Positions 2,176 to 19,373 of a stretch of 24,081 bases of DNA are shown here, piece by piece. Where the stretch lies: IMG/VR virus record IMGVR_UViG_3300046466_000127, positions 1-24,081 of that record; one strand, given 5' to 3'. The translations under genes were made by a program, and so were the position numbers. A model generated the notes under the pieces. The model was not told where the DNA came from and ran no database searches. It was given only the letters and a program-made list of their open reading frames with translations. Each line of letters opens with the position of its first letter. Within the stretch, counting starts at the first letter, position 1. The stretch comes from a virus.

Positions 2176-2291
2176 TGGACGAATCGTATGAACTCGAATG
2201 TGAAGTTTGTGACCATCGAACTGAAGTCCTAGTTTACGATAGCGAGGAAGAGCCCTCATTCTGCCCTATGTGCGGAACACCAATATCATAA
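2175..2291 (+). CDS. Small zinc-ribbon protein, 38 residues
   Basis: A short ORF starts on the ATG that overlaps the nrdB stop (TAATG) and encodes 38 acidic residues. It has two cysteine knuckles: CEVC at residues 9-12 and CPMCG at residues 30-34. This is the layout of a minimal zinc ribbon. About 17 residues separate the knuckles, which is enough for the beta hairpin. The length is below many gene-calling cut-offs, so it is easily missed. Translational coupling to nrdB suggests coexpression with the reductase genes. A role in nucleic acid or protein binding is only a guess. Similar mini zinc ribbons are common in T4-like phages. Confidence 0.7.
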   Translation: MDESYELECEVCDHRTEVLVYDSEEEPSFCPMCGTPIS

Positions 2292-2305
2292 CCATATATA
2301 CATTC

Positions 2306-2710
2306 ATGTGGATGTATGAAAATAAAGTATTTGAACCAGTAGACGAATTCCTTGAAGAATATCAGGGGTTCGTCTACTGTATTACAAATCTACAGAACGG
2401 TAAAAAGTATATTGGTAAAAAGTTTTTCTGGAAACCCAAAGTGTTACCCAAGACAAAAACCAGAAAGAGAAAAGTGAGGACAAGAGTCCAGTCTGATTGG
2501 CAAAGTTACCACGGGTCTTCTGGCGCCGTTCTAGACCTATTAGAACAGGGTGTTTCCTTCAATCGAGAGATACTACGACTTTGTAAGACTAAAGGTGAAT
2601 GTTCTTACTATGAGGCAAAACTGCAATTTGAAAATGACGTATTGTTAAATGATGACTACTACAATGAATTCATCGGGTGTAAAATACACTCAAGACATCT
2701 TAAATCGTGA
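2306..2710 (+). CDS. GIY-YIG endonuclease, SegE-like
   Basis: The N-terminal third carries the GIY-YIG signature in the form GFVYCITN ... KKYIGKKFFW, followed by a basic stretch rich in K and R that fits DNA contact. The remainder matches the compact SegE-like phage nucleases by general layout. Such proteins are free-standing homing or mobility nucleases, or DNA-processing enzymes, in T4-like phages. I chose the ATG at 2306, which opens with MWMYENK. A GTG at 2270 would extend the frame but would overlap the zinc-ribbon gene. No Shine-Dalgarno sequence is visible. The 3' end overlaps the ANL-like gene by about 60 bases. The nuclease family is fairly sure; the biological role is not. Confidence 0.8.
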   Translation: MWMYENKVFEPVDEFLEEYQGFVYCITNLQNGKKYIGKKFFWKPKVLPKTKTRKRKVRTRVQSDWQSYHGSSGAVLDLLEQGVSFNREILRLCKTKGECSYYEAKLQFENDVLLNDDYYNEFIGCKIHSRHLKS

Positions 2711-3917
2711 TATAATCAATAGAGAGATTTGGTGGTCTGACCATCAAAACCAACCAGAACCTAGAGAATCACGCGAATATTTTATTCGACTAATCAATAG
2801 ATGGAAACATCTATTAGAACTTAGTGGTGTAGTAAAAGGCAATCTCGTAACAATTTCACTCCTAAGTGTTGATACTATGCATGTCTCTGCAATCATCGCA
2901 TGTGCAGAGATGGGTCTAAAGATTATATTGTTAGACAGTCCCGCGACAGAAGAATCTCTTCCATACACCAAACTTGCGCTACATGGGCCATCTGATTTTT
3001 ATCTACATTTTAGTCATGAGGGTGATGGTGTGTATGGTGGTCTCCACGGTGAGATGATGAGACGATATGGGGGACAATCGATAGATGCGGTAAAACTGCC
3101 AGAAATGTCAACTGAAGATACAACGTTTAATTATGAAATTTCTCCTGATGACCCTCTATTGATGAGTTCTACTTCTGGAACAACTAAACCATCTAGACCA
3201 GTTTACTTCTCTCATCGAGAAGTTATGACAATCTCCCGTAGGAATGTGGATATATTTAAGTTTGATGAGAACTCAAAGGTTGTTCACTCAAGAAACCTAC
3301 ATCATGCTTCTGCAATGTTGACATCTCTCATTCCATCTCTAATGGTTGCAAATAGACATCTGACTCTTCCAATAAGTCACGATACAAACCTAGATGTGAA
3401 TGGTGCGAATGAGAGTTCATGGCAGATGATTTATAATGACGAGTTTACTCATGTTATGATAGCAAACGAAAAGTCGTTGAGACTATTTCTCGATAAATTT
3501 GATAAACCATTTAAGAAACCCCTGAACATCAATATGTGTGGGTTCACTCTTAATGAGACTTTCGTAGACCTCGCACGAGAATATAATGTGAAGTTTCATT
3601 CTCACTACGGGTCTATTGATACTGCAATCCCTTTACTGATAAACTTTGTTGACGAGGATAGTGTGGTCAAAGAAAATGGTCTGGGTGTGTTGGCAGATGA
3701 CTTCTATCAGTTCGATGGTAAAGAGATTCGGTGTGAACTCTGGGACGAACCACGATATATCGAGGACACGTTATATCTGATTGACGGTCATTTCTTTATC
3801 GAACCAAGAGAACTACCCGAAGTTCCAGATGATGTTGACCTAGAACCCTTCTTTCAAGATACGAAGATAAACTTCGAACAACTTCGTGGATATCTAAATG
3901 AACGCAATAAGTCGTGA
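2649..3917 (+). CDS. ANL superfamily adenylate-forming protein lacking the C-terminal lid domain
   Basis: The 422 residues look like the large N-terminal domain of acyl-CoA synthetase/NRPS-adenylation enzymes. A Ser/Thr/Gly-rich phosphate loop is at 173-184 (SSTSGTTKPSRP), close to motif A3. Motif A4-like His pair is at 218-219, an A5-like YGSID at 320-324 and an A7-like YLIDG at 376-380 with a possible ribose-binding Asp. The protein stops before motifs A8-A10, so the mobile lid with the catalytic Lys is missing. It may therefore bind or adenylate a carboxylate without a thioester step. The A3 loop has a second Pro and lacks the usual GxPK order. The start is uncertain: ATGs at 2649, 2652 and 2664 all lie inside the nuclease gene. 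A divergent relative follows directly. The substrate is unknown. Confidence 0.75.
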   Translation: MMTTTMNSSGVKYTQDILNRDIINREIWWSDHQNQPEPRESREYFIRLINRWKHLLELSGVVKGNLVTISLLSVDTMHVSAIIACAEMGLKIILLDSPATEESLPYTKLALHGPSDFYLHFSHEGDGVYGGLHGEMMRRYGGQSIDAVKLPEMSTEDTTFNYEISPDDPLLMSSTSGTTKPSRPVYFSHREVMTISRRNVDIFKFDENSKVVHSRNLHHASAMLTSLIPSLMVANRHLTLPISHDTNLDVNGANESSWQMIYNDEFTHVMIANEKSLRLFLDKFDKPFKKPLNINMCGFTLNETFVDLAREYNVKFHSHYGSIDTAIPLLINFVDEDSVVKENGLGVLADDFYQFDGKEIRCELWDEPRYIEDTLYLIDGHFFIEPRELPEVPDDVDLEPFFQDTKINFEQLRGYLNERNKS

Positions 3918-4857
3918 GATTATTCGGAAAGACCTCCTAATCGATGATGTCGATTATGAGAATCTATGTCTTTCTATCAACCAACACAAACGTTTCTTTC
4001 TGTCAAAGGGTATGGAGAAGGGTGATGTCGTATGTCTCAACCTTCCGCCTGATGGTGTATCATATATTGCATCCTATATCGCATGTCTTGAACTGGGACT
4101 ACCACTATTCATATGGGATGACTTTCTCTGGGATATCACAAATGACGAACACATACATGGCGGCGCGAAAGATTTTGTAAAGAGAAGTGATAGGGTCATT
4201 GACAATATCACCAACTGGACATCTAAGTTTAATACCAATCGTCATTTCATTCAACATACGATATTTGATGAAGACCTAAACTATGAGTTGTTTCCTTACT
4301 GGGCAAAGGCAATGGATGCTCTCAGGGAGACTGGATTTAGACATTCGTATGAGGGTGTAAAGGGTATGCCGACAGATGATATCCAACCGTGGTGGGTCAG
4401 TAAAGAAGATGTTGCAATCGTGGTGAACTATAATCTGGATTCGGACGAACCTAAATTCAAAGATGTTACCCATCAAGAACTTCTATCTGGATTGAAAGAC
4501 TTTCCGAAGGATGAGGTGTTTGGATTCAGCACATCACTTCACCACCATGACATTCTACAAAAAGGTATCCTACCCGCATTGATGAACTCAAAAAGATTGG
4601 TGTATCTGTTCACTCCGTCTCCTAAACTATATGGTGAGAGAGTGAAAGTGTTTCTTCGTAGAACAACACGCAAAATGAAACGATACGGTGTCAATGCGAT
4701 GTATACGGATGGGCCTGATAGTATGAGTAATTTGTTTGAAATAATGGGAGATGATGACTTTCTTGAGACTATCAGGATTATAATTACCGAAGAAAGAGGA
4801 GAATTCCACGATTATTGGGAGGCAGAAAAAAATATTATTTTCGAAAAAAGTGCTTGA
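3898..4857 (+). CDS. Degenerate ANL-like protein, divergent tandem relative of the preceding gene
   Basis: The 319 residues parallel the preceding protein in order. A helix followed by a GDVVCLNLP strand and IACLELGLPLFIWDD (residues 42-75) mirrors GNLVTISLL and IACAEMGLKIILLDS upstream. NLDSDEPKFKDVTHQEL occupies the place of the phosphate loop, and SLHHHD (213-218) matches the other protein's NLHHAS. The Ser/Thr/Gly loop and its Lys are gone, and no YGxxE motif is seen. Catalysis is therefore unlikely; a regulatory or scaffolding partner of the first ANL protein is plausible. The start overlaps the upstream stop by 20 bases. Its own stop is embedded in the -35 box of the next promoter. Origin by duplication is inferred from the parallel motifs, not from an alignment. 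Confidence 0.65.
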   Translation: MNAISREIIRKDLLIDDVDYENLCLSINQHKRFFLSKGMEKGDVVCLNLPPDGVSYIASYIACLELGLPLFIWDDFLWDITNDEHIHGGAKDFVKRSDRVIDNITNWTSKFNTNRHFIQHTIFDEDLNYELFPYWAKAMDALRETGFRHSYEGVKGMPTDDIQPWWVSKEDVAIVVNYNLDSDEPKFKDVTHQELLSGLKDFPKDEVFGFSTSLHHHDILQKGILPALMNSKRLVYLFTPSPKLYGERVKVFLRRTTRKMKRYGVNAMYTDGPDSMSNLFEIMGDDDFLETIRIIITEERGEFHDYWEAEKNIIFEKSA

Positions 4858-4911: not shown

Positions 4912-5340
4912 ATGGCTTATGTAACACAAGAGATGAAAAAAGAGTTGGCGCCTGGCATCAAGGCGGTTCTCAAGAAGTATGGTATGAAAGGTTCTATCAG
5001 TATCAACAACTATAGTTCTTTGGTTGTGACCCTGAAAGAAGGGCCTTTGTCTTTTACTGGTGTTGACCGGCGTGGTGAGAATATTTACTACCCTGCTACT
5101 GATGGCAATATCCACAGTCAAGTCAATACATACCACGTTGATAAATTTTACACTGGAGAGACTGCTGACTTTCTGAATGAGTTGGTTGCCGCCATGAAAG
5201 GTGTAACGAGTCGTGGTGAGTGGTATGACAAGACCGATATCATGACTGACTACTTTGACATCGCATACTATGTAAACGTCAATGTTGGTAAGTTTGATAA
5301 AGGTTACATCCAAACGGGTGTGGAGTCGCTCGCCGCATAA
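4912..5340 (+). CDS. Small phage protein, possibly LPD29-like
   Basis: This 142-residue soluble protein has no signal peptide or membrane segment. It begins with an amphipathic helix (KKELAPGIKAVLKKYG) followed by a beta-rich stretch with SISINNYSSLVVTL and then EGPLSF. A later helix (ADFLNELVAAMKGV) and a YFDIAYYVNVNVG strand close the fold. This order resembles the large polyvalent-protein-associated domain LPD29, known from phage and plasmid polyvalent proteins, but I recognise it only by eye. The gene is a single-gene unit with its own sigma70 promoter, a strong ribosome site and a strong terminator 65 bases downstream. It is probably early and highly expressed. Its function is unknown. 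Confidence 0.8.
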   Translation: MAYVTQEMKKELAPGIKAVLKKYGMKGSISINNYSSLVVTLKEGPLSFTGVDRRGENIYYPATDGNIHSQVNTYHVDKFYTGETADFLNELVAAMKGVTSRGEWYDKTDIMTDYFDIAYYVNVNVGKFDKGYIQTGVESLAA

Positions 5341-7333: not shown

Positions 7334-7791
7334 GACTATCACCAAACTTCACCTTGAGTGAATTTACCAAGTCCCAGACTGCTCTGCGACAAGGTATCGA
7401 CAACACACCGAATGAAGAACACTTGGTTGCGGCACAGGCGTTGTTCCTGATGGTCGTTCAACCTGTTCGAGATAACTTTGGTGTTACCGTAATCAACTCT
7501 GGATACCGTGGCCCTGCACTGAATGAAGCGGTTGGCGGTTCGTCAAAGTCCCAACATTGTAAGGGTGAGGCAGTGGACATCGAATGTCCAGGCACATCTA
7601 ACTACGAAGTCGCAAAGTGGATTGAAGACAATCTGGACTTTGACCAACTCATCCTTGAGTTCTATACGCCTGGCATTCCTGACTCTGGTTGGGTTCATGT
7701 GTCGTATAAGGTGGAAGGTAATCGTAAATCAGTATTGACCGCAATGAGAGAAGATGGCAAGACAGTCTATAAGACTGGACTAATTGAATGA
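7330..7791 (+). CDS. M15 family zinc peptidase (peptidoglycan D-Ala-D-Ala type)
   Basis: The 153-residue product begins RLSPNFTLSEFTKSQTA, typical of the M15A group. Zinc ligands are H76 and D83 in SQHCKGEAVDIE and H123 in GWVHVSY, with INSGYRG before them. Such phage enzymes cut peptide cross-links of peptidoglycan and serve as endolysin or tail-associated lysin. No signal peptide or membrane anchor is seen, so export would need a holin or virion delivery. I chose the TTG start at 7330, which overlaps the phoH stop and has GAGG at 7316-7319. The frame is open further upstream, but that part lies inside phoH and lacks family similarity. Confidence 0.9.
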   Translation: MRLSPNFTLSEFTKSQTALRQGIDNTPNEEHLVAAQALFLMVVQPVRDNFGVTVINSGYRGPALNEAVGGSSKSQHCKGEAVDIECPGTSNYEVAKWIEDNLDFDQLILEFYTPGIPDSGWVHVSYKVEGNRKSVLTAMREDGKTVYKTGLIE

Positions 7792-8633
7792 AAAATATCA
7801 TCTATCAATATATGATAATTGATGAAGATACTAACAAACGGGGTAAAGTTCCTCAGTATCCTCAAGGCACTCGCGCAGAACTATATCAAAAAACCGCAGA
7901 CCTCTCTGCGGAATCATTTCGCACCTATGCAAATAAGATAGGCGCAATACACCATTATACGAATAATAAGGTGTTTACTAAAGGTAAATCTGGGACTACT
8001 GTTCCTTTGTTTGAAGTTCTACGATTAGTTTACGACCCTCTCTATGATGACTTTGATAAGTTGTTGTTTGTCGATACGGATATTATTGCAAATACTGAAG
8101 AGAACATCTTTGACATAGAAGACTGTGATGTTTATGGTGTGTTTGAGTCTGATATTCGGACAACCAAAGGGGGTGGATATAATAGTTGGGATTATAGTCA
8201 AAAAAAATATCAAGAAGTTGCAACAAGATTTAATAGAACGGGTGTCCCTATCGTTGAGAACCGATGGGGTAAAGAACCATCAAGTATAACCTGTTTCAAT
8301 ACTGGTGTCATGGTTTGGTCAAGAGATGCACGACTCAAAGCACGAGAGTGTTTTGATGACTGGTATGAATACATGATGGCAGGAGAGGGTAAGGATGCGT
8401 TTTGGGTAAACAATGACCAGTTCTTCATCTCTGGTCAATTGACCAAACACGGATTTGACATCAAGGGTATTGACCAGACTTGGAATGATACACCCACCCA
8501 TTGGGAAGATGACCGTGGATATGATATGAATTTTCTGCACTACACGGGTGGCGGTAATAAAGTTATCATGCTTGATGATTATACAAATAATAAATTCAAA
8601 TACTTAAAAAAATTCAAATATGTAAAGGCATAA
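7788..8633 (+). CDS. GT8-like (GT-A fold) glycosyltransferase
   Basis: The 281 residues carry a nucleotide-sugar metal site DTD at 96-98 in LLFVDTDIIANTEENIFD. FNTGVMVW follows at 170-177, NNDQ at 208-211 and HYTGGG at 251-256. This order is that of GT8-type glycosyltransferases. It would transfer a sugar from a nucleotide donor in the cytoplasm; the acceptor is unknown. The ATG overlaps the peptidase stop (ATGA). The C-terminus is a lysine-rich repeat (KFKYLKKFKYVKA), and a third copy of the underlying DNA lies just after the stop in another frame. Confidence 0.88.
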   Translation: MKNIIYQYMIIDEDTNKRGKVPQYPQGTRAELYQKTADLSAESFRTYANKIGAIHHYTNNKVFTKGKSGTTVPLFEVLRLVYDPLYDDFDKLLFVDTDIIANTEENIFDIEDCDVYGVFESDIRTTKGGGYNSWDYSQKKYQEVATRFNRTGVPIVENRWGKEPSSITCFNTGVMVWSRDARLKARECFDDWYEYMMAGEGKDAFWVNNDQFFISGQLTKHGFDIKGIDQTWNDTPTHWEDDRGYDMNFLHYTGGGNKVIMLDDYTNNKFKYLKKFKYVKA

Positions 8634-8654
8634 AAAGGGCAAATTCAAATACTT
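8592..8654 (+). repeat. Three short direct repeats of AAATTCAAATA at a gene end
   Basis: AAATTCAAATACTT occurs at 8592-8605 and 8641-8654, and the shorter AAATTCAAATA at 8610-8620. The first two copies are in frame and encode KFKY twice. The third lies after the stop and, in its own frame, would read KFKYLKP then a stop. This looks like a small tandem duplication at the 3' end of the glycosyltransferase gene. Confidence 0.7.
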
Positions 8655-8714
8655 GAAACCGTAAAGATTGAAGACCGCACTTACGCAATCGTGCAGATAC
8701 TCAACTTTAATTTT

Positions 8715-8864
8715 ATGAATACTTACGAGATTATCTGTTCGGATGAATATTATAGTGATGTTGTCGCAGGCCCGTATCTTTCTATAGAGGAAGCGGTCAA
8801 AGACTTACTGTCTGTTGCCGAGATGCATGAAAAAATACATGCACGACCCACAAAAAACGCTTGA
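8715..8864 (+). CDS. Small hypothetical protein, 49 residues
   Basis: The ORF MNTYEIICSDEYYSDVVAG... with SIEEAVKDLLSVAEMH looks like the many small alpha/beta phage proteins that open with a short strand and carry a helix. The frame stays open back to 8634 without a stop, reading IEDRTYAIVQILNFNF before the Met, and a GTG at 8691 is an alternative start. No clear ribosome site precedes either start. The TGA stop lies within the -35 box of the next promoter. It could be a complete small gene or the remains of a longer one disturbed by the repeat upstream. The family is not recognised. Confidence 0.45.
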   Translation: MNTYEIICSDEYYSDVVAGPYLSIEEAVKDLLSVAEMHEKIHARPTKNA

Positions 8865-8889
8865 CAAACTGTGCCCTTTCTTGTATTAT
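8861..8889 (+). promoter_or_regulatory. Sigma70-type promoter, TTGACA-17-TATTAT
   Basis: TTGACA (8861-8866), a 17-base spacer and TATTAT (8884-8889). A TATAAT at 8887-8892 would have a 20-base spacer. A good AAAGGA ribosome site (8901-8906) and ATG 8913 follow. It shares GCTTGACA with the two promoters near 4.9 and 5.4 kb and probably starts the transcript through the carbamoyltransferase and glycosyltransferase genes. Confidence 0.8.
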
Positions 8890-8912
8890 AATAGTATAAG
8901 AAAGGAAAATAT

Positions 8913-9488
8913 ATGAAAAAATATCACAAAGTAGTTCTTACCGACATTGATGGTGTTGTCCTTAACTGGGGATATGCCTTTGATATCTGGATGCAAGAAA
9001 AGGGTTATGTTGTTAAAGACCCCGATTCCTATGATATAGGTAAGGTCTATGGACTTGAACCTTCTGAATCAAAAGAAATGGTTCGGTTGTTCAACGAAAG
9101 TGCTGCGATTGGTTTTCTACCACCTCTCCGCGATGCAATGCACTATATCAAGAAACTCCATGAAGAACATGGGTATGTCTTTCACGCAATCACAAGTTTG
9201 AGTAAAGACTTTAACGCACAGAAACTTCGGACACAGAACCTTCAGAAGTTGTTTGGTGAAACTGTGTTTGAGAAGTTTATCTATCTTGATACTGGGGCTG
9301 ACAAAGACCAAGAGTTAAGTCAGTATGAAGGTAAAGATTATGTCTGGGTTGAAGACAAGATTGAGAATGCCCAGTGTGGTGCAAGTTTTGGTCTTGACTC
9401 TATTCTCATGGAACACAGTTTCAACATGGATAATACAGAGTTTCCCCTGATGAAAAACTGGAAAGATATATACGAATATTTAACTTGA
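8913..9488 (+). CDS. HAD-superfamily phosphatase
   Basis: HAD motif I is seen as LTDIDGVV with D11 (nucleophile) and D13. Motif II is ITS around T94-S95, and motif IV is VEDKIENA with E147-D148. The 191 residues leave room for a small helical cap (roughly residues 25-75). Likely activity is removal of phosphate from a small phosphorylated compound, a sugar phosphate or a nucleotide. Nearby glycan genes favour a sugar phosphate, while the same type of enzyme in phages also acts as a 5'-deoxynucleotidase. It is the first gene after a strong promoter. Its end overlaps the frame of the next gene, whose ATG I place at 9500. Confidence 0.85.
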   Translation: MKKYHKVVLTDIDGVVLNWGYAFDIWMQEKGYVVKDPDSYDIGKVYGLEPSESKEMVRLFNESAAIGFLPPLRDAMHYIKKLHEEHGYVFHAITSLSKDFNAQKLRTQNLQKLFGETVFEKFIYLDTGADKDQELSQYEGKDYVWVEDKIENAQCGASFGLDSILMEHSFNMDNTEFPLMKNWKDIYEYLT

Positions 9489-9499
9489 TATATACTCCT

Positions 9500-11002
9500 A
9501 TGAGATATGTTGGTTATTCAGAATACTTTCACGATGCGGCATTGGCTATCGTCAATCCCGATGGTAAAGTCGCATATGCGTCACAATCAGAACGATATAG
9601 TAAAATAAAAAACGATGAATTGATATTCCCTGAGATGTGGAATTTTGTCAATGATGATGACCACGTTACCTTTTATGAAGATATAAATTTGCGTAAAAAA
9701 ATGATGGGCGGTTATCGCACATTTGGTGCCCCTAAATTTAGGAATCAAAAAGAAGAACAAACAGCGCCAATTAGTAATTCATACCTGTATGATGATTTTA
9801 ATCTACATCATGAAAGTCATTGTGCTCTCGCATTTTTCACTCGGCCGTGGCAATCAAAAGAAGACACAGTTTGTGTTTCAGTAGATGGTTCGGGTGAACT
9901 TGAATCGGTTGCAATTCATGACCACAATCTAAAACCCATAAAAAAAGTTATGTGGCCACAATCTCTTGGAATGTTATATGGGACTGTGACTGGAGCAATA
10001 GGTTTGAAATCTCTTAGAGATGAATATATCGTCATGGGACTTTCTTCGTATGGTGAGGTTGACAAAAAACTTTACGACATATTATATAACGGTTATTATT
10101 GGTTTGAAAGTGAACAGGGATTATACGAGAAAATGATTGTAGATTTTGAACAAACTTCAATCGCAGAAAGTTCCCTAAGCGCTAAATTTGTTGTATATGA
10201 AACAAGAATAAAAAATAGGTGCAAGGAGATATCTATGGAGGATGCCGCTGCAACTGTTCAAAATTTCTTTGAGGTCGAAGTTCTTAAAATTATGAAGGAA
10301 GCAAGAAAGTATGGGTCTAAACTTGTCTATGGTGGTGGTTGTGCCCAAAATGTTATTGCAAACTCTATGATACGCGAACTCTTTGATGACATGCATATTG
10401 CAATCGCACCTAATGATGCAGGCAATGCTCTAGGGTGTGCAGCATACACATGGCATAAAAACACGGGGGGAACACATCTAGACTGGTCTCCATATTTGGG
10501 TCATAATATTGACCGTGATATCAATCCAAAAGAAGTTGCAAAGTATCTCGTTGAAAATCGAGTCTGTGGTATTGCAAATGGTCGAGCAGAGTATGGCCCT
10601 CGTGCATTGGGTAATCGGTCTCTGATTGCAGATGTTCGTTATGATGTCAAGGATACCGTTAATGAAATAAAAAAGAGACACAAGTTCAGACCTTTTGGCC
10701 CTGCAATTCTGTCAGAATTTCAAGACCACTATTTTGATGGTCATAAAAATGAATATATGCAGTATGCTGCAATTGCAAAACATCCTTATGACTCTGTAAC
10801 ACATATAGATAATACTGCAAGGGTGCAAGTAGTAAAACCTGATTGCAAATCTGTTCTTAGACAGATATTAGAAGAATATTTTGAACTTACACAAGTCCCA
10901 ATGTTACTAAATACTTCTTTGAACATAAGAAATCAACCTATGGTAAATACCATTGAGGACGCTATAGAATGGGAAAAAAAATATAACGTAAGAGTATTCT
11001 AA
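9500..11002 (+). CDS. NodU/CmcH-family carbamoyltransferase
   Basis: This enzyme transfers a carbamoyl group from carbamoyl phosphate, via carbamoyl-adenylate, to a sugar hydroxyl. The N-terminal ASKHA/Kae1-like domain shows YFHDAALAIV (9-18), QSERYSK (29-35), HHESHCALAFF (103-113) and VSVDGSGE (126-133). A GGGCAQNVIAN motif is at 278-288. The C-terminal domain has GRAEYGPRALGNRS (361-374), FRPFGPAIL and later LLNTSLN. These are the family's main signatures, so the enzyme looks intact at 500 residues, slightly shorter than NodU. I prefer ATG 9500 to the in-frame TTG at 9485. The stop overlaps the next ATG. This gene looks more AT-rich than its neighbours, a hint of separate acquisition. Confidence 0.95.
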   Translation: MRYVGYSEYFHDAALAIVNPDGKVAYASQSERYSKIKNDELIFPEMWNFVNDDDHVTFYEDINLRKKMMGGYRTFGAPKFRNQKEEQTAPISNSYLYDDFNLHHESHCALAFFTRPWQSKEDTVCVSVDGSGELESVAIHDHNLKPIKKVMWPQSLGMLYGTVTGAIGLKSLRDEYIVMGLSSYGEVDKKLYDILYNGYYWFESEQGLYEKMIVDFEQTSIAESSLSAKFVVYETRIKNRCKEISMEDAAATVQNFFEVEVLKIMKEARKYGSKLVYGGGCAQNVIANSMIRELFDDMHIAIAPNDAGNALGCAAYTWHKNTGGTHLDWSPYLGHNIDRDINPKEVAKYLVENRVCGIANGRAEYGPRALGNRSLIADVRYDVKDTVNEIKKRHKFRPFGPAILSEFQDHYFDGHKNEYMQYAAIAKHPYDSVTHIDNTARVQVVKPDCKSVLRQILEEYFELTQVPMLLNTSLNIRNQPMVNTIEDAIEWEKKYNVRVF

Positions 11003-11331
11003 TGGCAAAAAAACAAAAACAATTACAAGAACAATCAATTTATGATAAGTATGATTTAGATGGGGATGGAACAGTGACAGATGAAGAACTCGCTCGAGCC
11101 GAAGAGATGCGTAGATTTGATAATGAAGATGCGAAGGCAGACGCACAACGTAAGATGGCGTGGTTTGCTCTGTGGGGTATGTTGTTATATCCACCTAGTA
11201 TTGGTGTAGCAAGTATATTTGGATTAGATATTGCAGCATCTTTGATTGCAGATATCGCATCTGTTTATTTCGTATCGGTTGCAGCAATCGTTGCAGCATT
11301 CTTCGGGGCATCTGCACTGAACAAAAAGTAA
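11002..11331 (+). CDS. EF-hand protein with two membrane segments
   Basis: An almost perfect EF-hand calcium loop lies at residues 18-29 (DLDGDGTVTDEE), with ligands at D18, D20, D22, T24, T26 and E29. A charged helix follows. Two hydrophobic stretches, about 53-73 and 84-104, suggest a helical hairpin in the membrane with the EF-hand on one face. A similar 100-110 residue protein (DLDGDG plus WFALWGMLLYP) is, from memory, common in marine T4-like phages; its role is unknown. Membrane location and size could fit a holin or a membrane-associated calcium sensor. It is squeezed between two glycan genes with TAATG overlaps on both sides, so it is cotranslated with them. Confidence 0.85.
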   Translation: MAKKQKQLQEQSIYDKYDLDGDGTVTDEELARAEEMRRFDNEDAKADAQRKMAWFALWGMLLYPPSIGVASIFGLDIAASLIADIASVYFVSVAAIVAAFFGASALNKK

Positions 11332-12170
11332 TGAAAATAAGATGGCGTGGAACTTGGGGTGTTGGTGACTTCATGCAAGCACTCAACGCCTCTCATAATT
11401 ATTGTTTCAAAAATAAGACAACAGTAAATCTTGAGATGCACTGGCGACATGATGAAGACTACCTTCATCATCCTAAAGACCCAGAAACAATCATTCAAAG
11501 AATGGATTGGCTACACACACAATATCATCGTCAGGATGATGTGACAGTCACGCATGTTTTTAATTCTCAACTATTTCCGTATAATAACCTCGATACATCA
11601 GCCAATAAAACCCGATGTTATTTTGATGACAAGCCTGTTGCATCTCCAAAAAATGACTGGATATTCAAACCAGAGTCATTTGTTCCCAAAAGAAAAAAGA
11701 TAGTTATCTGGACACCTACATATAATAGTCAAGCACCAAGAACTTGGAAAAACTTCTTGACAAGTGATGATTGGTATGATATAATTAAGCTACTTTCTTG
11801 GGAGGGTTGGATACTAGTAGAATTAACTTATCGAACTCCTATCAGTGTTGCATTCAAACAAATATCAGAGGCAGATTTTATTGTATGTTATGATGGTATG
11901 TGGCACTTGATTGCAAGAAATTTTGGTAAACCTATGTTCATACCATCTTGGGAAGGTATCACTGAATACAACACACCACAGGCAATAAGAAGACCTATTT
12001 TAGATTTATCTAAATATAAAGACAATCCCTCTGGGGCGACAGCTGTTGGTCGCAAGGATGTTAAGAAATTTTTTGGTGATGGTAATAAAAAGTTTGAACC
12101 TAATCTTACTAAAATGAAAACAAAAGCAAAAGTTTATTTGAAAAATCTAAAAAAATATCATGAAGATTGA
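11331..12170 (+). CDS. GT-B glycosyltransferase, heptosyltransferase (GT9)-like
   Basis: The protein opens with MKIRWRGTWGVGDFMQALN, resembling the N-terminal GIGD loop of ADP-heptose:LPS heptosyltransferases. The C-terminal half has a strand-loop KKIVIWTPTYNSQAPRTW and EADFIVCYDGMWHLIARNFGKP, the donor-site region where GT9 enzymes have D/S-GxxH-A. This supports a GT-B transferase of 279 residues acting in the cytoplasm on a lipid- or protein-linked glycan. The donor sugar cannot be told. The tail is lysine-rich. The start overlaps the previous stop, and the next gene begins 11 bases before its own stop. It is AT-rich by eye, like the carbamoyltransferase. Confidence 0.75.
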   Translation: MKIRWRGTWGVGDFMQALNASHNYCFKNKTTVNLEMHWRHDEDYLHHPKDPETIIQRMDWLHTQYHRQDDVTVTHVFNSQLFPYNNLDTSANKTRCYFDDKPVASPKNDWIFKPESFVPKRKKIVIWTPTYNSQAPRTWKNFLTSDDWYDIIKLLSWEGWILVELTYRTPISVAFKQISEADFIVCYDGMWHLIARNFGKPMFIPSWEGITEYNTPQAIRRPILDLSKYKDNPSGATAVGRKDVKKFFGDGNKKFEPNLTKMKTKAKVYLKNLKKYHED

Positions 12171-13119
12171 TAGAGCAGTAATTGAAGTCTATGGTGGATG
12201 TAACTACTCATGTAGTATGTGTCCTCAAGATATGCGAACAGGTGGTCGGGATAAACGATTCAAGGGTAAGATGACTCTTGAAGAGTTTGAACAGAACGTA
12301 GCAGATTGTGCTCAACATGGTCTACGAGTCGTAAACCTTGATGGTAGTGGTGAGGCAACCGCAGTCAATAACCTACCCGATTATATCAGGATTGTCAAGA
12401 AATATAATGCACAGGCTGTTATCTTTTCTAATGGGTTCAAGATGCATGGTCAATACATGAAGGACTGTGTTGATGCGGGTCTTGACTTCTATCGGTTCTC
12501 ATTCATTGGGTCAAACCATGATAAATACGATGAGTGGATGTATAATAAAGTCGGTGGGACATACGAAAAAATTATTCAGAACATCCGCGAAATGAAGGCG
12601 TATGTAGAAGAGACCGAATCAAAATGTGTAGTTGCGACATATCATCTGATTACTGACAATGACAATCTACAGAATGAACTAGACGAATACAAAGCATTGG
12701 TCGAAGACCTAGGCGTCAGAACAGAGATTTGGAAACTACATAACTGGAGTGGTGTGTATGACCCGTCTTATAAACGCGAAGGTGAGGTAAAGACCTGTGG
12801 GCGACCTTTTAGTCCAGACGTTGTTATTCGTGTTGGTGGCCTTGATGGTAAAAGAGGTGCTGTCGCTCCTTGTTGCCAAGTCTTGGGTAGAGACGAGGAA
12901 GCAGTTCTCGGTCACACATCTGAAAACACAATTGAAGAAATCTGGTTCGGTGATGCGTATAGTCAACTCCGTGATGACCATACTACTGGAAATTATCCTG
13001 ATTACTGCCGTGGGTGCGACTTTCTTCTTGATGACCCCGAAGTTCTAATTTATACAAATCACAATCGCGACCTCCACCACATGTATGGCACGGAGTTTGA
13101 CCTCAATGATTTCCGATAA
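12160..13119 (+). CDS. Radical SAM enzyme with SPASM-type auxiliary cluster domain
   Basis: The CxxxCxxC motif at C14, C18 and C21 (CNYSCSMCPQD) binds the [4Fe-4S] cluster that cleaves S-adenosylmethionine. A glycine-rich GSGEAT segment follows. The C-terminal part has a cysteine set typical of SPASM domains (TCGRPF, APCC, then CRGC after LGH...IEEIWFGD). It can hold one or two auxiliary clusters. Such enzymes modify peptides or sugars by radical chemistry; which substrate applies here is unknown. Placed between glycosyltransferases, a sugar or glycoprotein is plausible. Length (319) is normal. The start overlaps the GT-B gene by 11 bases. Confidence 0.9.
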   Translation: MKIDRAVIEVYGGCNYSCSMCPQDMRTGGRDKRFKGKMTLEEFEQNVADCAQHGLRVVNLDGSGEATAVNNLPDYIRIVKKYNAQAVIFSNGFKMHGQYMKDCVDAGLDFYRFSFIGSNHDKYDEWMYNKVGGTYEKIIQNIREMKAYVEETESKCVVATYHLITDNDNLQNELDEYKALVEDLGVRTEIWKLHNWSGVYDPSYKREGEVKTCGRPFSPDVVIRVGGLDGKRGAVAPCCQVLGRDEEAVLGHTSENTIEEIWFGDAYSQLRDDHTTGNYPDYCRGCDFLLDDPEVLIYTNHNRDLHHMYGTEFDLNDFR

Positions 13120-13705
13120 CATTTGGATGATACAGATACCTGATAACGAGGTATCACAATATTATGTGAATAGGGTTTTACCTTCGTGGAATAATCATAA
13201 GGTAAATATGTTTGATGCATATACACCAGACCATATGCCTGACCATCTGAACTTCGGAAAGTTTTGGAACTTTCGAGACTTCAGTCAATCAGAGAAGGCG
13301 GGGTTCTATAGTCATTTAGAACTGTGGAAAAAATGTTTTGAAGAGGATGAACCTATCGCAATCATTGAACACGATGTGATGTGCATCAAAGATGATATGC
13401 CTATCATAGATAATTTCTTTGCCTTCTGCGATTTTGACTCTGAACAGAGTCATGAAAACTATGCCACAAGATTTAGAGGTCATCCCTATTGGGGGACGGG
13501 AGAGATGTTCTGTCCAGTCACTCATGCATATTACATGACACCTGATGTGGCAGAGACGATGTATTATAATCTTATAGATACAAAACTGAATAAATTTGTT
13601 GATGATTACATGTGGGAATTCATGGGTAAGGATACAAACAAAATTGTAAATTACACAAATCCTCTGTATGACAAAGAAGTTGGAGCAACGATGATTCATG
13701 AATAG
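13106..13705 (+). CDS. GT25-like glycosyltransferase (1 of 3)
   Basis: SEKAGFYSHLELWKKCFEEDEPIAIIEHDV matches, in two pieces, the GT25 pattern of an SHxxLW helix followed by a strand ending in an acidic metal-site motif. Here that motif is EHD rather than EDD. VTHAYYMTPDVAETMYYNL corresponds to the later GT25 AYxxxxxGA region. About 200 residues. LPS-type GT25 enzymes add hexoses in the cytoplasm. I chose ATG 13106, with GGAG at 13092-13095, over ATG 13085, since both overlap the radical SAM gene. It overlaps the next gene by 8 bases. Two related genes occur at 21929 and 22624. Confidence 0.8.
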   Translation: MISDNIWMIQIPDNEVSQYYVNRVLPSWNNHKVNMFDAYTPDHMPDHLNFGKFWNFRDFSQSEKAGFYSHLELWKKCFEEDEPIAIIEHDVMCIKDDMPIIDNFFAFCDFDSEQSHENYATRFRGHPYWGTGEMFCPVTHAYYMTPDVAETMYYNLIDTKLNKFVDDYMWEFMGKDTNKIVNYTNPLYDKEVGATMIHE

Positions 13706-14486
13706 AATGATTTTCCAAGTGGCGGTAGGTAAACCGTCCAAACTATATGAACACTGCATTGAAAGTGTTGCACAATACTGTGAGAAATATAATATTAAAC
13801 ATGTCGTATTGACTCAACCCAAACTGCGTATCAAACCTGACATCTTTACCAGTGGACGAAGTGAGGAATCCTATATGAAGTATGGGGGATATCTGCCTAT
13901 CTATGAGAAGGAGAATGCGTTTGAGTATCTGGATGACTATGACCAGATTGCAATCGTAGATGCAGACATCTATATCCGACCAGACGCACCAAATATCTTT
14001 GAAGACTTTGGAACAGAACATGCGTTTGGTGCGGTATGTGAACGCGAGATGAATATTCAGGATTGGTATAAAAACAAGATTATCAACTACTCGCGTATGC
14101 AATACAATCCGCTTCATCGGAATACCCTTGATTTCAAACCAAACAATCTGGGGTTTGAGTTCTTTAACATGGGTCTCATTCTGTTGAACAGTAAACTCTT
14201 CAAACCATACCTCAAAGGCCAAGACCCACATAGTTTTATCAATCGTATGGAGTTTAAGGACTTTGTTGATGGTGTGGGTGCATGGAAGTGGTCTACCGAC
14301 CAGACACTACTGAACTACTTTCTCAAGAGATATAACATTCCAACTAAACATATGAACGGTAAATGGAATGGTCTGTATAGTGCAGTCGATAATCTGAAGG
14401 ATTGTCACTTCATTCATTTCTTCCTAAAAGACAAACTTCCCAATGCTGGTGAGAATGTTGGAGAGTTGATGAAACAAATCGTATAA
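13698..14486 (+). CDS. GT8-like (GT-A fold) glycosyltransferase
   Basis: The 262 residues contain the metal-binding triad DAD at 88-90 in IAIVDADIYIRPDAPNIFE. FFNMGLILLN, STDQTLLNYF and a C-terminal HFIHFF follow, the GT8-like order. A nucleotide-sugar donor is expected; the acceptor is unknown. It resembles the other GT8-like proteins in the window (7788 and 23264) in motif order, but not closely by eye. The 3' end carries the T4-type late promoter, which overlaps its stop codon, so it is the last gene of the upstream transcription block. Confidence 0.85.
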   Translation: MNRMIFQVAVGKPSKLYEHCIESVAQYCEKYNIKHVVLTQPKLRIKPDIFTSGRSEESYMKYGGYLPIYEKENAFEYLDDYDQIAIVDADIYIRPDAPNIFEDFGTEHAFGAVCEREMNIQDWYKNKIINYSRMQYNPLHRNTLDFKPNNLGFEFFNMGLILLNSKLFKPYLKGQDPHSFINRMEFKDFVDGVGAWKWSTDQTLLNYFLKRYNIPTKHMNGKWNGLYSAVDNLKDCHFIHFFLKDKLPNAGENVGELMKQIV

Positions 14487-14489
14487 ATA
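14482..14489 (+). promoter_or_regulatory. T4-type late promoter box TATAAATA
   Basis: An exact match to the T4 late promoter consensus, TATAAATA, lies 35 bases before the ATG at 14524. It overlaps the stop codon of the GT8-like gene. The leader is short and non-coding, with AAGGA at 14513-14517. Late transcription by RNA polymerase carrying a gp55-type sigma factor is expected for the genes downstream. Confidence 0.75.
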
Positions 14490-14523
14490 ATGTTATTGTC
14501 AATAGAGTGAATAAGGAACTAAC

Positions 14524-15222
14524 ATGTTAAACCCACAAGAGTTTGTGAAGAAAATTCGCAACGAAAATCAAGCATTGTTCGAAGCATCCAAGATGAACGT
14601 CAAGGCATACTTCGAAGGCGACCTTTCTAAAGAGGAAATGGTTGACCACTTCATTGGTCGCATGGTCAATGAACGTATGAACATGTCTGAAATCTCCGCA
14701 CAAATCGCAAGTGCAGACGATGATGCAGACCCAAGAGAATTAGAATTACTTTCAAAACAAGCAGCAGATGAAGCAAAACACTATCGTATGGTCAAGGAAG
14801 TTATTGAACATATCACTGGTGAAGAAGTAGATGCTGCAAGTGCGATTGCAAAAGAACGCGAAATGGATACTGCCAAAGGTGCATCTCTGTTAGAAAAGTA
14901 TGACGCAGAGAATGACGAGGCAGTCCTCGCCGCATATCAGTTGGTTGCGGAAGGTCGTGCAGAAGCGGTATGGAATCAGATGGCAGATACTATCGAAGAT
15001 AGTTTCATTTCTGGTCGTTATCGCGAGATTGCAAAGGACGAAGGTTTCCACAGTGGTATCGGTGCATACAAGTTACGCAAAGTTGCAACCGATGAGAAAA
15101 CACAGAGTCGTGTTCTTCGTATTATCGAAGCAATGCGTAAAGACCTGTTTGAAATCTCGTGTGCAAATACAGTCGAAGCAAAAGGTTCACGCGAACTTGT
15201 GAACACAGTCTACGGTTGGTAA
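14524..15222 (+). CDS. Ferritin-like diiron carboxylate protein
   Basis: The 232 residues are almost entirely helical with the spacing of a four-helix diiron bundle. Candidate ligands are E50 (VNERMNM), E83 and H86 in DEAKH, E143 or E147 in AEGRAEAVW, and E173 and H176 in DEGFH. Two ExxH pairs plus further Glu are diagnostic of the ferritin-like superfamily. Possible roles are oxygen-dependent hydroxylation or oxidation of a sugar, lipid or RNA, in the manner of MiaE-like and deformylating oxygenases, or iron storage. As first gene of a late unit rich in glycan-tailoring genes, an oxygenase is attractive but unproven. Three other genes of the window also use iron or other metals. Confidence 0.8.
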   Translation: MLNPQEFVKKIRNENQALFEASKMNVKAYFEGDLSKEEMVDHFIGRMVNERMNMSEISAQIASADDDADPRELELLSKQAADEAKHYRMVKEVIEHITGEEVDAASAIAKEREMDTAKGASLLEKYDAENDEAVLAAYQLVAEGRAEAVWNQMADTIEDSFISGRYREIAKDEGFHSGIGAYKLRKVATDEKTQSRVLRIIEAMRKDLFEISCANTVEAKGSRELVNTVYGW

Positions 15223-15774
15223 ATGAACGTAGGACTCACACAACGAGTCCTCACGCACAACGGACAAGTTCATGACTCTTTAGACCACAACTGGTATCGG
15301 TTGTTGAAGGGTCATGAACTTATCCCCATCCCAAATCGTGAAGACTTAGATTATGAATCCCTTGCGGAGTCTCTCGACCTTCTCATCGTCACAGGTGGGG
15401 ATAACGAAGAGATTCGTATTATCACAGAAGTATCTCTCATAACCGAAATGTCAAGACTGGGTAAACCCATTCTTGGTATCTGTCATGGTGCGTTTCTCCT
15501 AACAGAGATGCTTGGCGGTAGCACGAAGGAAATCGAAGGTCACTATGATACCGAACATCTTGTATATGGAGATGCACCTACCCACATCCGTGTGAACAGT
15601 TTTCATAATATTTCTATTGACAAACAGCCCCCAAATGGTGTATACTTATATATTGATGGGAATGGTAACATTGAGTCTTGGATGAAAGACAACATATGTG
15701 CAATTGTCTGGCATCCTGAAAGAATGACCAGACCCTTTATACCTGATGAGATACGGAAGGTGACAGGATTATGA
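15223..15774 (+). CDS. Class I glutamine amidotransferase-like hydrolase (peptidase C26 type)
   Basis: The triad is visible: nucleophile C87 in ILGICHGAF, with H164 and E166 in IVWHPERM. NSFHN (125-129) is the additional motif of the C26 gamma-glutamyl hydrolase group. The N-terminal QRV...HDSLDHNW resembles, by memory, members found in surface polysaccharide clusters. These include Campylobacter Cj1417, which hydrolyses gamma-glutamyl-CDP-amidate. The family removes glutamine-derived glutamate or ammonia. It follows the ferritin-like gene with no gap (TAA then ATG). A free-standing enzyme of 183 residues with no synthase domain favours a hydrolase role. The specific substrate is inference. 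Confidence 0.88.
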   Translation: MNVGLTQRVLTHNGQVHDSLDHNWYRLLKGHELIPIPNREDLDYESLAESLDLLIVTGGDNEEIRIITEVSLITEMSRLGKPILGICHGAFLLTEMLGGSTKEIEGHYDTEHLVYGDAPTHIRVNSFHNISIDKQPPNGVYLYIDGNGNIESWMKDNICAIVWHPERMTRPFIPDEIRKVTGL

Positions 15775-16451
15775 TGAAACAGATTGATAATGGAGAGACT
15801 TATCAGGTTACCGATATTTGGAATTATGATATCCAAGTTATAAGGGGTGTCAATACGACTTATATCAATAACAATAACTCGATAGGAACAAGTTATATTA
15901 TGGGTAAAGACTGTAGTGTCCATATGAAGAACGGTTGGTCAGTTGAGACTAACAGTTTCGCAGGGCAGACAGACAATGAGTTCACGGTTGAGACACATAA
16001 TGATACCTCTGTGTTTGCTCACATCAAGTTCTATGGTCTGCATCTCAACGATGACCGCATGTTCATACCACATGATAATCCAAAAGGCAACCTATCTTAC
16101 ATGGACGGCGGAACGAACACCACCGCAGTCAATCCTGGCCGTCTTGGACTTCCCGTCATCAACTATGTCCACTTCCCCGCAGGGATGAAACAGACTCTCC
16201 ACACTCATCCAAGTCAACGCATCGGATTAGTCCTGTCTGGTAAAGGTGAGATTGAACTTGATAATGATGTAATGTTCCCTATCAAGGCGGGGGATTGTTG
16301 GGTCATGGAGAGAAATGTTTTACATAATTTTATGTGTAATAAGGGTGAGGATGTTACATTATTTGTATTCAGTCCTGACTCTGGAACAGGGCCAACAGAT
16401 GAAATCAACCCATTGAAAGTGAGAACCTATGTCGGACAACAACGATTATAA
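15771..16451 (+). CDS. Cupin-fold protein
   Basis: The C-terminal half shows the cupin metal-site motifs HTHPSQR (144-150) with later E160 in GKGEIEL, then G-D in IKAGDCWVMERNVLHNF with H185. That is cupin motif 1 and 2 in order. The N-terminal half (residues 1-110) is beta-rich and may form a second, degenerate barrel. Possible activities are sugar isomerase, epimerase or dioxygenase. It could equally bind a small molecule. It overlaps the amidotransferase stop (ATG at 15771 or 15774). It is part of the late tailoring block, so modification of a sugar is plausible but not shown. Confidence 0.82.
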   Translation: MMKQIDNGETYQVTDIWNYDIQVIRGVNTTYINNNNSIGTSYIMGKDCSVHMKNGWSVETNSFAGQTDNEFTVETHNDTSVFAHIKFYGLHLNDDRMFIPHDNPKGNLSYMDGGTNTTAVNPGRLGLPVINYVHFPAGMKQTLHTHPSQRIGLVLSGKGEIELDNDVMFPIKAGDCWVMERNVLHNFMCNKGEDVTLFVFSPDSGTGPTDEINPLKVRTYVGQQRL

Positions 16452-17067
16452 AAAACTATTAATCATAACAGGCCCACAGGGGTCTGGCAATCATCTATTC
16501 AGTAAAGTGTTTAGTTATCATCCATATGTGAGTGGATGGGATTTTGGTGACAAGTATTGGATACCAAGTGACGAAGAACCCTTTGCAGAATGTTGGGTAG
16601 ACCCATCAAAGACGAAGAGTATGTTGAAAAGTTCTGCGGTTGTTGCAAACGTCAGTGTGCCTTTTGTGTATGACGGAGTGAAACAAGTTCCAAAGATACA
16701 AGAAGTCATGAAGGAGGCACAAAACGTAGGGTATGATGTTAAGGTCTGTATTGTAGTTCGAGACCGTAATATAAATATGGAACAACAGTTTAGGGTTAGA
16801 AACGAATTCACATTGCCACAAGCACTAGGATATTATTACAAACTAGATGCCGACTTACAGTTCCTTTCTCATGAGTCGTTATATTTGTATGGTGGTGCGT
16901 ATCTGAAGTGGTTGTCAAAGGTTCTTGACTTTCCGATTGCATATAATGATGAACGAATTGAGAAAGATATTGCAAAAGACCAAAATGCAAAATATGTGGA
17001 GCCTGTTGACTCTCACTGGTTGGATGAACAAGTATGGCAAGGGATAAGACCAAAGAATGAACGGTAA
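16429..17067 (+). CDS. P-loop sulfotransferase-like protein (1 of 3)
   Basis: LLIITGPQGSGNHLFSKVFSYHP near the N-terminus is a P-loop of the sulfotransferase type; GSGNHLF at 18-24 would bind the 5'-phosphosulfate of PAPS. VKVCIVVRDRNINMEQQF looks like the 3'-phosphate binding region (VxxR). The protein has 212 residues. A kinase cannot be excluded, because the loop is also compatible with nucleotide kinases. It overlaps the cupin gene by 23 bases and the next sulfotransferase-like gene by 11 bases. The three such genes at 16.4-18.8 kb share only the fold, not clear sequence identity. Confidence 0.65.
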   Translation: MSDNNDYKKLLIITGPQGSGNHLFSKVFSYHPYVSGWDFGDKYWIPSDEEPFAECWVDPSKTKSMLKSSAVVANVSVPFVYDGVKQVPKIQEVMKEAQNVGYDVKVCIVVRDRNINMEQQFRVRNEFTLPQALGYYYKLDADLQFLSHESLYLYGGAYLKWLSKVLDFPIAYNDERIEKDIAKDQNAKYVEPVDSHWLDEQVWQGIRPKNER

Positions 17068-17593
17068 ATACATCTTTGTCACTGGTGCGCCTGGTTCACG
17101 ATGGAGTGGTTATGTTGAAGACCACCTATACATTCGTGACGATATAGACAAGAGTGATAGGTCACCTGAACGAGAGTATTGGCATGGTCGTGATGGTTGT
17201 AGAGACTTAGTGCATAGAGGTGCATACTTTGACCCTGGCATGGAGTTTCGAAATGATGAGAAATATTGGGATAAACCATTTAGTGGTGAAGGTATTCGCA
17301 TAATCAAGTCTCATACATTTGCTTATCATATATATTGGTTGATGAGATGGAACTGTCCTATTCATCTGGTATATAGAACTAATCAAGAATGTTTTGATTG
17401 GTGGCACGAATGTGGTGGTTGGAATATCAAGTATCCCGACTATAAATGGTATCGAGACGATGACAATATGATAGAACAGATACAAATGCAGAACCTTCTT
17501 ATCAAAGAATTTGTTGAAGAAGAAGGTCTTGAAAAACATAATGACGGAAAAAGAGATTATTACATATGGACGCCAAAGACAGAGAATGGTTAA
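17057..17593 (+). CDS. P-loop sulfotransferase-like protein (2 of 3)
   Basis: The N-terminal YIFVTGAPGSRWSGYVE contains a P-loop-like GAPGSRWSG (10-18). RIIKSHTFAYHIYWLM followed by IHLVYRTNQECFDWW recalls the sulfotransferase KSH strand and the Arg-containing 3'-phosphate site. The 178 residues are rich in Trp and Tyr. It is short for a sulfotransferase, so it may be a reduced enzyme or a divergent kinase. It overlaps genes on both sides (the methyltransferase ATG lies inside it). The assignment rests on the motif order. Confidence 0.55.
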   Translation: MNGKYIFVTGAPGSRWSGYVEDHLYIRDDIDKSDRSPEREYWHGRDGCRDLVHRGAYFDPGMEFRNDEKYWDKPFSGEGIRIIKSHTFAYHIYWLMRWNCPIHLVYRTNQECFDWWHECGGWNIKYPDYKWYRDDDNMIEQIQMQNLLIKEFVEEEGLEKHNDGKRDYYIWTPKTENG

Positions 17594-18135
17594 AAGATTA
17601 CTTTACTTACCATTGGCCCAGTTCACGCACTGCGGGATTGGATGATTATTATTGGACAGGATGGAGATTGATAGATGAAATACAAGAAGGAGAAACCGTC
17701 TTGGATGTCGGTTGCGGGGTTAATCCGTTTAAGAGACATATTAAAGGATTACATGGCATCGATATTACAGACATTGGGAGTGACGAACAAGTCGCAATCG
17801 AGGACTATAGACCAGAAACTAAATTTGATGTTGCTTTTTGCCTCGGCTCTATTAATTTTGGCGGCTGGTCTGAAGTAGTAGAACAAATCAATTCACTGAC
17901 ACGAAGGTGTCTAAAAGATGAATGTCGAATTTATTGGAGATGTAATCCAGGCCATCGTGACCATGAGAATGAATTAGTCAACCAAGTTCCCTTCTTTAAT
18001 TGGAATATAAATCATCATATCATGTTGACACAAAATACAGGTTTCAAAGTTACAGAATTTATGCCTGATAATAATAGGATGTATGTGAAATGGGAAAGAA
18101 AATCTTCGTCCATATCCCCAAAAACGGGGGGATGA
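17566..18135 (+). CDS. Class I SAM-dependent methyltransferase (1 of 3)
   Basis: Motif I is VLDVGCGVNP (45-54). KFDVAFCLGSINFGGW is in the position of motif IV. The C-terminal strands and EFMPDNNRMYVKWERK complete the fold of 189 residues. It should transfer methyl from S-adenosylmethionine to a small molecule or sugar. The target is unknown. The start lies inside the upstream gene (28-base overlap). The last 46 bases overlap the sulfotransferase start at 18090, so the C-terminus SSSISPKTGG comes from a region read in two frames. Confidence 0.82.
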   Translation: MDAKDREWLKDYFTYHWPSSRTAGLDDYYWTGWRLIDEIQEGETVLDVGCGVNPFKRHIKGLHGIDITDIGSDEQVAIEDYRPETKFDVAFCLGSINFGGWSEVVEQINSLTRRCLKDECRIYWRCNPGHRDHENELVNQVPFFNWNINHHIMLTQNTGFKVTEFMPDNNRMYVKWERKSSSISPKTGG

Positions 18136-18779
18136 CAATCAGGAGAAATCCTGAACTGCGACCAAAAGTATTACTCGCAACACCAGAAAATCATATTAAT
18201 CGTCAGTATACAGAAGACCTTTTTCGCGTTATGCAAGAAAACCGCGAACATCACGGTTTTGAACATGCAAGGTGGAGAGACTGGAATCAACAGGTTCGAG
18301 AAAATCATCGTGCATTTGCAATTGTTCGTAACCCGTGGAGTCGAGTTGTATCGCGATTTGAATTTGCAAAAAAGGTAATCTATAAAGAAGATGGTTCTGA
18401 CCATTTTGGTAGAACAGATTATATTGACTGTTCCTCGTTTGAAGCATTCCTTGAAACTCGACACGAATGGGGTGGTAGAAAGTTCTTCTGGCATCGTGCA
18501 ATCCGTGGGTGGTATCCCGCATTGGATTATGTGACTGATGAAAAAGGTAAACTTAGGTGTGACATTCTTAGGTTTGAACACTATGATGATGACGTAAAAT
18601 CATATCTGGGTGTCCTATTCAATCCCGAACCTCGCAATGTGACTGGATATAAACAGTCTACATATACTGATTACTATAACGATAAAACAATTCAGATTGT
18701 TGCTGACTGGTATAAAAAAGATATTGACTATTGGGGATTCGACTTTGATAGTGCTGCACAAAGGAACTATTGGAGATGA
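18090..18779 (+). CDS. Carbohydrate sulfotransferase (Sulfotransfer_2 type; 3 of 3)
   Basis: This is the clearest sulfotransferase. IFVHIPKNGGMTI (5-17) is the 5'-phosphosulfate loop, and AIVRNPWSRVVSRF (77-90), with R80 and S84, is the 3'-phosphate site. DILRFEHYDDDV and later QIVADWYKKDIDYWGFDF match the usual C-terminal helices. It has 229 residues. The family transfers sulfate from PAPS to hydroxyls of glycans in the cytoplasm or Golgi of known members. A phage enzyme would need host PAPS. The stop overlaps the following methyltransferase ATG (ATGATG). Activity is likely, since both binding motifs are intact. Confidence 0.85.
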   Translation: MGKKIFVHIPKNGGMTIRRNPELRPKVLLATPENHINRQYTEDLFRVMQENREHHGFEHARWRDWNQQVRENHRAFAIVRNPWSRVVSRFEFAKKVIYKEDGSDHFGRTDYIDCSSFEAFLETRHEWGGRKFFWHRAIRGWYPALDYVTDEKGKLRCDILRFEHYDDDVKSYLGVLFNPEPRNVTGYKQSTYTDYYNDKTIQIVADWYKKDIDYWGFDFDSAAQRNYWR

Positions 18780-19372: not shown

Positions 19373-19373
19373 T

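Follow-up and report, generated by a model that had tools for sequence, protein, structure and literature searches.

A conserved viral gene pair encoding a compact ANL-fold adenylation protein and its degenerate, truncated paralog

The stretch of DNA analysed here (the window) is a 24,081-base record of an uncultured virus, and the carriers of the gene pair that it contains are uncultured marine T4-like phages. The genes, which we call A and B, follow one another on the same strand (Table 1). The initial annotation had started A at position 2649, giving 422 residues, whereas relatives begin at an ATG equivalent to position 2664; the overlap with the upstream GIY-YIG gene persists even from this later start. 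A and B also share the end of one reading frame and the beginning of the next, and translational coupling of the two is likely. In most relatives the pair is found between the GIY-YIG and phrog_10415 genes, behind nrdA-nrdB. The PHROG family matching the GIY-YIG gene (Pfam 1.9e-34) is phrog_447, labelled ‘NAD synthetase’, and this label, which is used in phage C48C1 too, looks like a misannotation. The closest NrdA sequences are those of phage C48C1 and of Methylophilales phages; a cyanophage host was considered and rejected, as eight contigs contained no psbA-type gene.

Table 1 Features of the A/B locus in the window
Feature	Position	Strand	Basis or remark
SegE-like GIY-YIG endonuclease gene	2270..2710	+	Conserved left border; 3' end overlaps A
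Gene A, compact ANL adenylation protein	2664..3917	+	417 aa from ATG 2664; Pfam match, AF2 fold, relatives
A3 phosphate loop of A, SSTSGTTKPSRP (residues 168-179)	3165..3200	+	SSTSG core in 43/43 distinct relatives
A4-like motif of A, RNLHHASA (residues 210-217)	3291..3314	+	Assigned by sequence reading
A5 motif of A, YGSID (residues 315-319)	3606..3620	+	Aligned with MenE FGMTE
A7/A8-like region of A, invariant D368 to R382	3765..3809	+	Assigned by sequence reading
C-terminal DTKINFEQLRG of A (residues 399-409), invariant K401	3858..3890	+	A10-like motif, candidate catalytic lysine
A/B reading-frame overlap, 20 nt	3898..3917	+	ORF coordinates
Gene B, truncated ANL paralog without P-loop, 319 aa	3898..4857	+	Profile, AF2 fold, relatives
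P-loop-equivalent region of B, degenerate (NYNLDSDEPKFKDVTH)	4426..4473	+	Compared with relatives
phrog_10415 gene, function unassigned	4912..5340	+	Right border in most relatives

A is confirmed as an ANL-fold adenylation protein, with a similarity that lies well beyond chance. The window protein matches the AMP-binding family PF00501 (E=1.3e-5) and MenE-type models (3.9e-6), in both cases under the curated cut-off, and PF00501 is matched by all 14 of the A relatives searched, the best at 2.9e-11. MenE, Acs and long-chain acyl-CoA ligases are among the best models, a profile search of PDB sequences leads to acetyl-CoA synthetase and MenE, and the AF2 model (pLDDT 78.8, pTM 0.85) finds ANL structures in 50/50 of the PDB fold matches listed (best E 2.0e-15). 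The window B protein alone has no match to the Pfam AMP-binding family; 8/14 of its relatives do match it (best E 1.1e-5), and the corresponding profile search of PDB sequences returns LgrA adenylation domains at 3e-4. The AF2 model of B (pLDDT 72.8, pTM 0.80) again has ANL folds throughout the top 50 matches listed, the best at 9.8e-12. The initial annotation had read a common order of ANL motifs in two consecutive proteins, and the Pfam, profile and fold matches, including the structure predictions of each protein taken singly, all agree with that reading.

The active-site motifs of A are retained in relatives that have diverged to about 50% identity, which supports the view that A is catalytically competent. 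The segments kept are SSTSG[TS]T..[S][RK], HSRNLHHASA, SH[YF]GSIDTA and the C-terminal DTK.....LRG, together with an Asp and an Arg that fit A7 and A8; with conservative changes allowed, the A3 pattern SSTSG[TS]T and the A5 pattern SH[YF]G[ST][IV]DTA each occur in 43/43 A relatives. The usual ANL A5 motif is YGxTE, of which YGSID is a variant with Asp in place of Glu, and the P-loop Lys is often Arg in this family. Some relatives carry the canonical SGTTGxSK phosphate loop, and the deepest members are almost canonical (GDRLEYRNGKYYHLGR; SGTTDYSK in one of them, L229), while the A7/A8-like region of deeper relatives reads GD...NGKYYHLGR or DD...DGKYILKGR. The phosphate loop and YGSID that had been noted in the first protein are both in place.

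The most unusual feature of A is its lid. A canonical ANL lid spans about 100 residues from A8 to A10, whereas only about 35-45 residues remain after the A8-like Arg of A, so that the lid is cut to about 40. We had initially taken A to be strictly lid-less, and this was revised once an A10-like tail was recognised at the C-terminus: PFFQDTKINFEQLRGYL aligns beside the EntE A10 segment PLTAVGKVDKKQLRQWL. Scored with an A10 matrix derived from six E. coli enzymes, the column of K401 ranks first in the A family, with a mean of 8.0 against 2.3 for the next. Single-sequence scores at K401 are modest, with tail shuffles giving p ~0.02-0.03 and other window proteins scoring as high, and the isolated tail, aligned by profile to the E. 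coli ANL enzymes, gives an E of 0.36, which is non-significant alone. The resemblance of this motif to A10 with its catalytic lysine is therefore suggestive, and the earlier statement that A ends before the lid holds for the canonical lid but needs amending to a reduced lid whose short tail may keep the catalytic lysine. Given this lid, A is best described from its sequence as a variant, non-canonical member of the superfamily. A tail that retains the lysine and little else would fit an enzyme that makes acyl-adenylates and has no need of a lid for thioester transfer.

B is more closely tied to A than to the six E. coli ANL enzymes compared. The two proteins match at E=5e-6 by BLASTP and at 5e-31 by profile-profile comparison, which is stronger than the match of six E. 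coli ANL enzymes to the A and B profiles (9e-12 and 2e-7), and B is therefore supported as a paralog of A. The loss of the phosphate loop from the second protein, as originally noted, extends to the family (P-loop in 0/35 distinct B). Its description as a degenerate partner was right but understated the defect: B retains the N-terminal half of the core and stops before A5, so that it is without A5-A10 as well. Both genes are under purifying selection, with similar dN/dS values of 0.13-0.28 for B and 0.11-0.24 for A, while the divergence of B is about three times as fast as that of A. These ratios and the wide retention of B led us to reject a recent pseudogene.

We sampled 80 viral loci carrying A and looked for B within 5 kb and then along the contigs. 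B lies within 5 kb of A in 57/80, in several gene orders, and ten further loci with A alone or with A beside an SGNH-like gene have it about 7-8 kb upstream on the same contig. The arrangements within 5 kb are A-B (21 loci), B-A (17), A-SGNH-B (15), B-A-SGNH (4), A-SGNH (10) and A alone (13). Where B is still missing, the contig in most cases stops before B could appear, and all of a first set of ten records contain B. A and B thus almost always travel together, a near-universal pairing that bears out the co-occurrence in related phages on which the initial annotation had staked its proposal. Among twelve contigs of the wider group that have the same border gene and no A at the locus, a profile search recovered no A, an empty answer that carries little weight. 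Three contigs (L161, L163 and L164) have A, no recognisable B and a third ANL-like paralog of 472 residues about 7 kb off; a copy of this paralog at L237:7638-9056 on the minus strand, likewise from a contig with A and no recognisable B, bears the degenerate P-loop TSGYSGDDYK. One of the 21 A-B loci has A split in two frames. At L011:6004-7243, A is spread over two ORFs that overlap, of 302 and 126 aa, and its identity to the window protein rises from 51% to 87% near residue 300; we read the split as a frameshift or an assembly error in a mosaic gene.

The genes that recur beside the pair point to acyl or surface decoration. An SGNH-like gene is found between or after A and B in 29/80 loci; its product has 270-291 residues, the gene touches A, and the assignment is based on GCSF and GHPD motifs and on a best match to DUF6071 at 3.2e-6, with a catalytic Asp not evident. 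On contigs where B is distant, a desaturase-like gene overlaps B by 14 nt, with matches to the DesA family (1.8e-6) and SCD1 (0.008) and with one relative annotated FA_desaturase in Pelagibacter phage Mosig; such genes occur on 7/14 contigs with A and 1/8 without. At L194:2937-4448, B is fused to a Methyltransf_24 domain in a protein of 503 aa, and a PhyH-type dioxygenase gene lies between this fusion and A. A carbamoyltransferase-family gene lies just upstream of A in G020, and in L046 a relative of a gene from the window's glycan cluster directly follows A. Of the contigs carrying A, 10/12 also have a relative of the window carbamoyltransferase, as against 2/8 of those lacking A (Fisher p 0.019, with no correction for phylogeny). 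In the window itself, the pair is adjoined by neither an SGNH nor a desaturase gene. The earlier remark that no phage pathway is an obvious home for such proteins is weakened by these SGNH-like, desaturase-like, carbamoyltransferase, methyltransferase and dioxygenase neighbours, all of them from related loci. The neighbours could also be passengers of shared mobility in a variable region, which would count against the link to decoration.

We tentatively propose, as a plausible reading that falls short of probable, that A and its dead partner B are the two subunits of an acyl-adenylating enzyme, whose product feeds a module for surface or lipid decoration. A would use ATP to adenylate a carboxylic acid. 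This is most probably not an amino acid; an acyl or fatty acid would be an example. NRPS adenylation domains carry an amino-acid-binding Asp at the A4 position; no Asp of this type is seen there in A by sequence reading, and this, with the fatty-acid-type chemistry of the neighbours, leads us to favour an acyl over an amino acid. A would work with its shortened lid, the A10-type lysine being kept and the remainder gone. B, as a truncated and catalytically dead paralog, would be needed by A as a partner; it presumably heterodimerises with A and may complete or regulate it, or present the acceptor. The pair would be the source of activated acyl groups for the decoration of a surface glycan or lipid by a module that the phage itself encodes, and no large lid for thioester transfer would be required. 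The analysis establishes the ANL fold of both proteins, the conserved motifs of A and their loss from B, purifying selection, the pairing and the neighbour genes; from these we infer the adenylation activity, the part played by K401, the complex, its substrate and its acceptor. In a more specific version, which we regard as somewhat doubtful, a mini-lid catalytic subunit and an obligate truncated pseudo-ANL subunit make up a phage-specific heteromeric ANL enzyme. It would form acyl-adenylates and transfer them to acceptors, surface or lipid, with neither CoA nor a carrier protein involved.

A conserved dead paralog and the missing full lid would also be expected of a non-catalytic sensor or regulator, in which B, altered when A takes up ATP or an acyl-adenylate, signals to another phage or host protein. 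Pseudoenzyme partners that regulate active paralogs are known, as in the AdoMetDC-prozyme of T. brucei (PMC5201418), where a catalytic subunit and a catalytically dead paralog are likewise maintained together; that system differs in fold and organism. We nevertheless consider a sensor unlikely, because the active-site motifs of A are kept in relatives differing at about half of their residues, which fits catalysis better, and because the genes that recur beside the pair are metabolic. B might instead be a decaying duplicate, left adjacent by tandem duplication, with A acting alone. Its truncation, its lost P-loop and its faster evolution are what decay would produce, yet we find this very hard to credit in view of its dN/dS, its retention about 7-8 kb away in ten contigs, its presence in both gene orders and its fusion to a methyltransferase.

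The speed at which the locus changes invites another explanation. A (50-66% identity) and B (18-34%) diverge far faster than neighbours such as NrdB (97-99%), identity along A is mosaic and gene orders are swapped between loci, all of which would be explained if the pair served counter-defence or host takeover by modifying or consuming some molecule or protein of the host. Surface-modification genes are also expected to diverge fast, however, the partner genes look metabolic, and PADLOC models give only weak partial matches that we take as chance (PDC-S42 at 0.027; GajA at 4e-4 over 47 aa of B), so that a role of this kind seems distinctly improbable. The position behind nrdA-nrdB in most relatives would suit a role in modifying the bases of phage DNA, or its precursors, with an acyl or amide group; many relatives of the locus keep nrdAB without A and B, and the carbamoyltransferase, desaturase and SGNH-like neighbours do not fit such a role, leaving it very improbable.

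Comparison with known systems bears on how much of this is new. Uncultured Caudovirales phages in BFVD encode short ANL-fold proteins of 359-442 and 465 aa (A0A6J5L571, A0A6J5L563 and A0A6J7WHT9; best E 1.7e-22) under the automatic name ‘AMP-dependent synthetase/ligase’, and ANL proteins are therefore not in themselves a novelty among phages. They share at most 18% identity with A over the structural alignment, and their record lines describe no partner. With the ANL superfamily at large (acyl-CoA synthetases, NRPS adenylation domains, fatty acyl-AMP ligases; PF00501), A and B share the fold and A shares motifs A3 and A5, probably A7 and A8, and perhaps A10; A differs in its length of 385-445 aa, its lid of about 40 residues, its scores below all curated cut-offs and its obligate-looking truncated paralog. 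In Dlt D-alanylation, the ANL enzyme DltA works with the SGNH-like DltD. Some of the loci described here similarly place an ANL gene beside an SGNH-like gene, and we propose surface esterification by this analogy; unlike in Dlt, no DltB (MBOAT) or DltC carrier is seen among the immediate neighbours of the pair, and no test here marks A as a D-alanine ligase. A and B had no tblastn match in 50,697 annotated phage records, a scan of bacterial and archaeal genomes for A alone found none, PHROGs gave no match for A, B or the SGNH-like gene, and a literature search returned nothing on point for phage ANL enzymes, lid-less adenylation proteins or ANL heterodimers. The conserved pair, with its degenerate partner and reduced lid, appears to be new.

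Lid rotation has long been held to be central to ANL chemistry, and an ANL enzyme that has hardly any lid and works with a dead paralog dedicated to it would, if the proposal is correct, bear on that view. Common marine T4-like phages would then own an acyl-activation step, and infection would be tied to host-envelope chemistry or to that of phage-coat glycans. The A family is short, conserved and soluble-looking, and should thus be easily tested.

The same window contains a long cluster of glycosyltransferases and modifying genes (7788-23932), a phage glycan-building region that includes a NodU-like carbamoyltransferase (9485-11002), a radical SAM/SPASM gene (12160-13119) and cupin, sulfotransferase-like and methyltransferase genes. 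A 232-aa helical protein encoded at 14524-15222 has ferritin-like EAKHY-type motifs and no Pfam, PHROG or NCBIfam match of note. The product of the next gene (15223-15774) is a glutamine amidotransferase whose nearest match is gamma-glutamyl-CDP-amidate hydrolase (NF045546, 1e-15), and HAD and nucleotidyltransferase domains are fused in the protein encoded at 19898-21223; these two genes suggest a phosphoramidate-type sugar decoration, resembling Campylobacter MeOPN, in the same phage.
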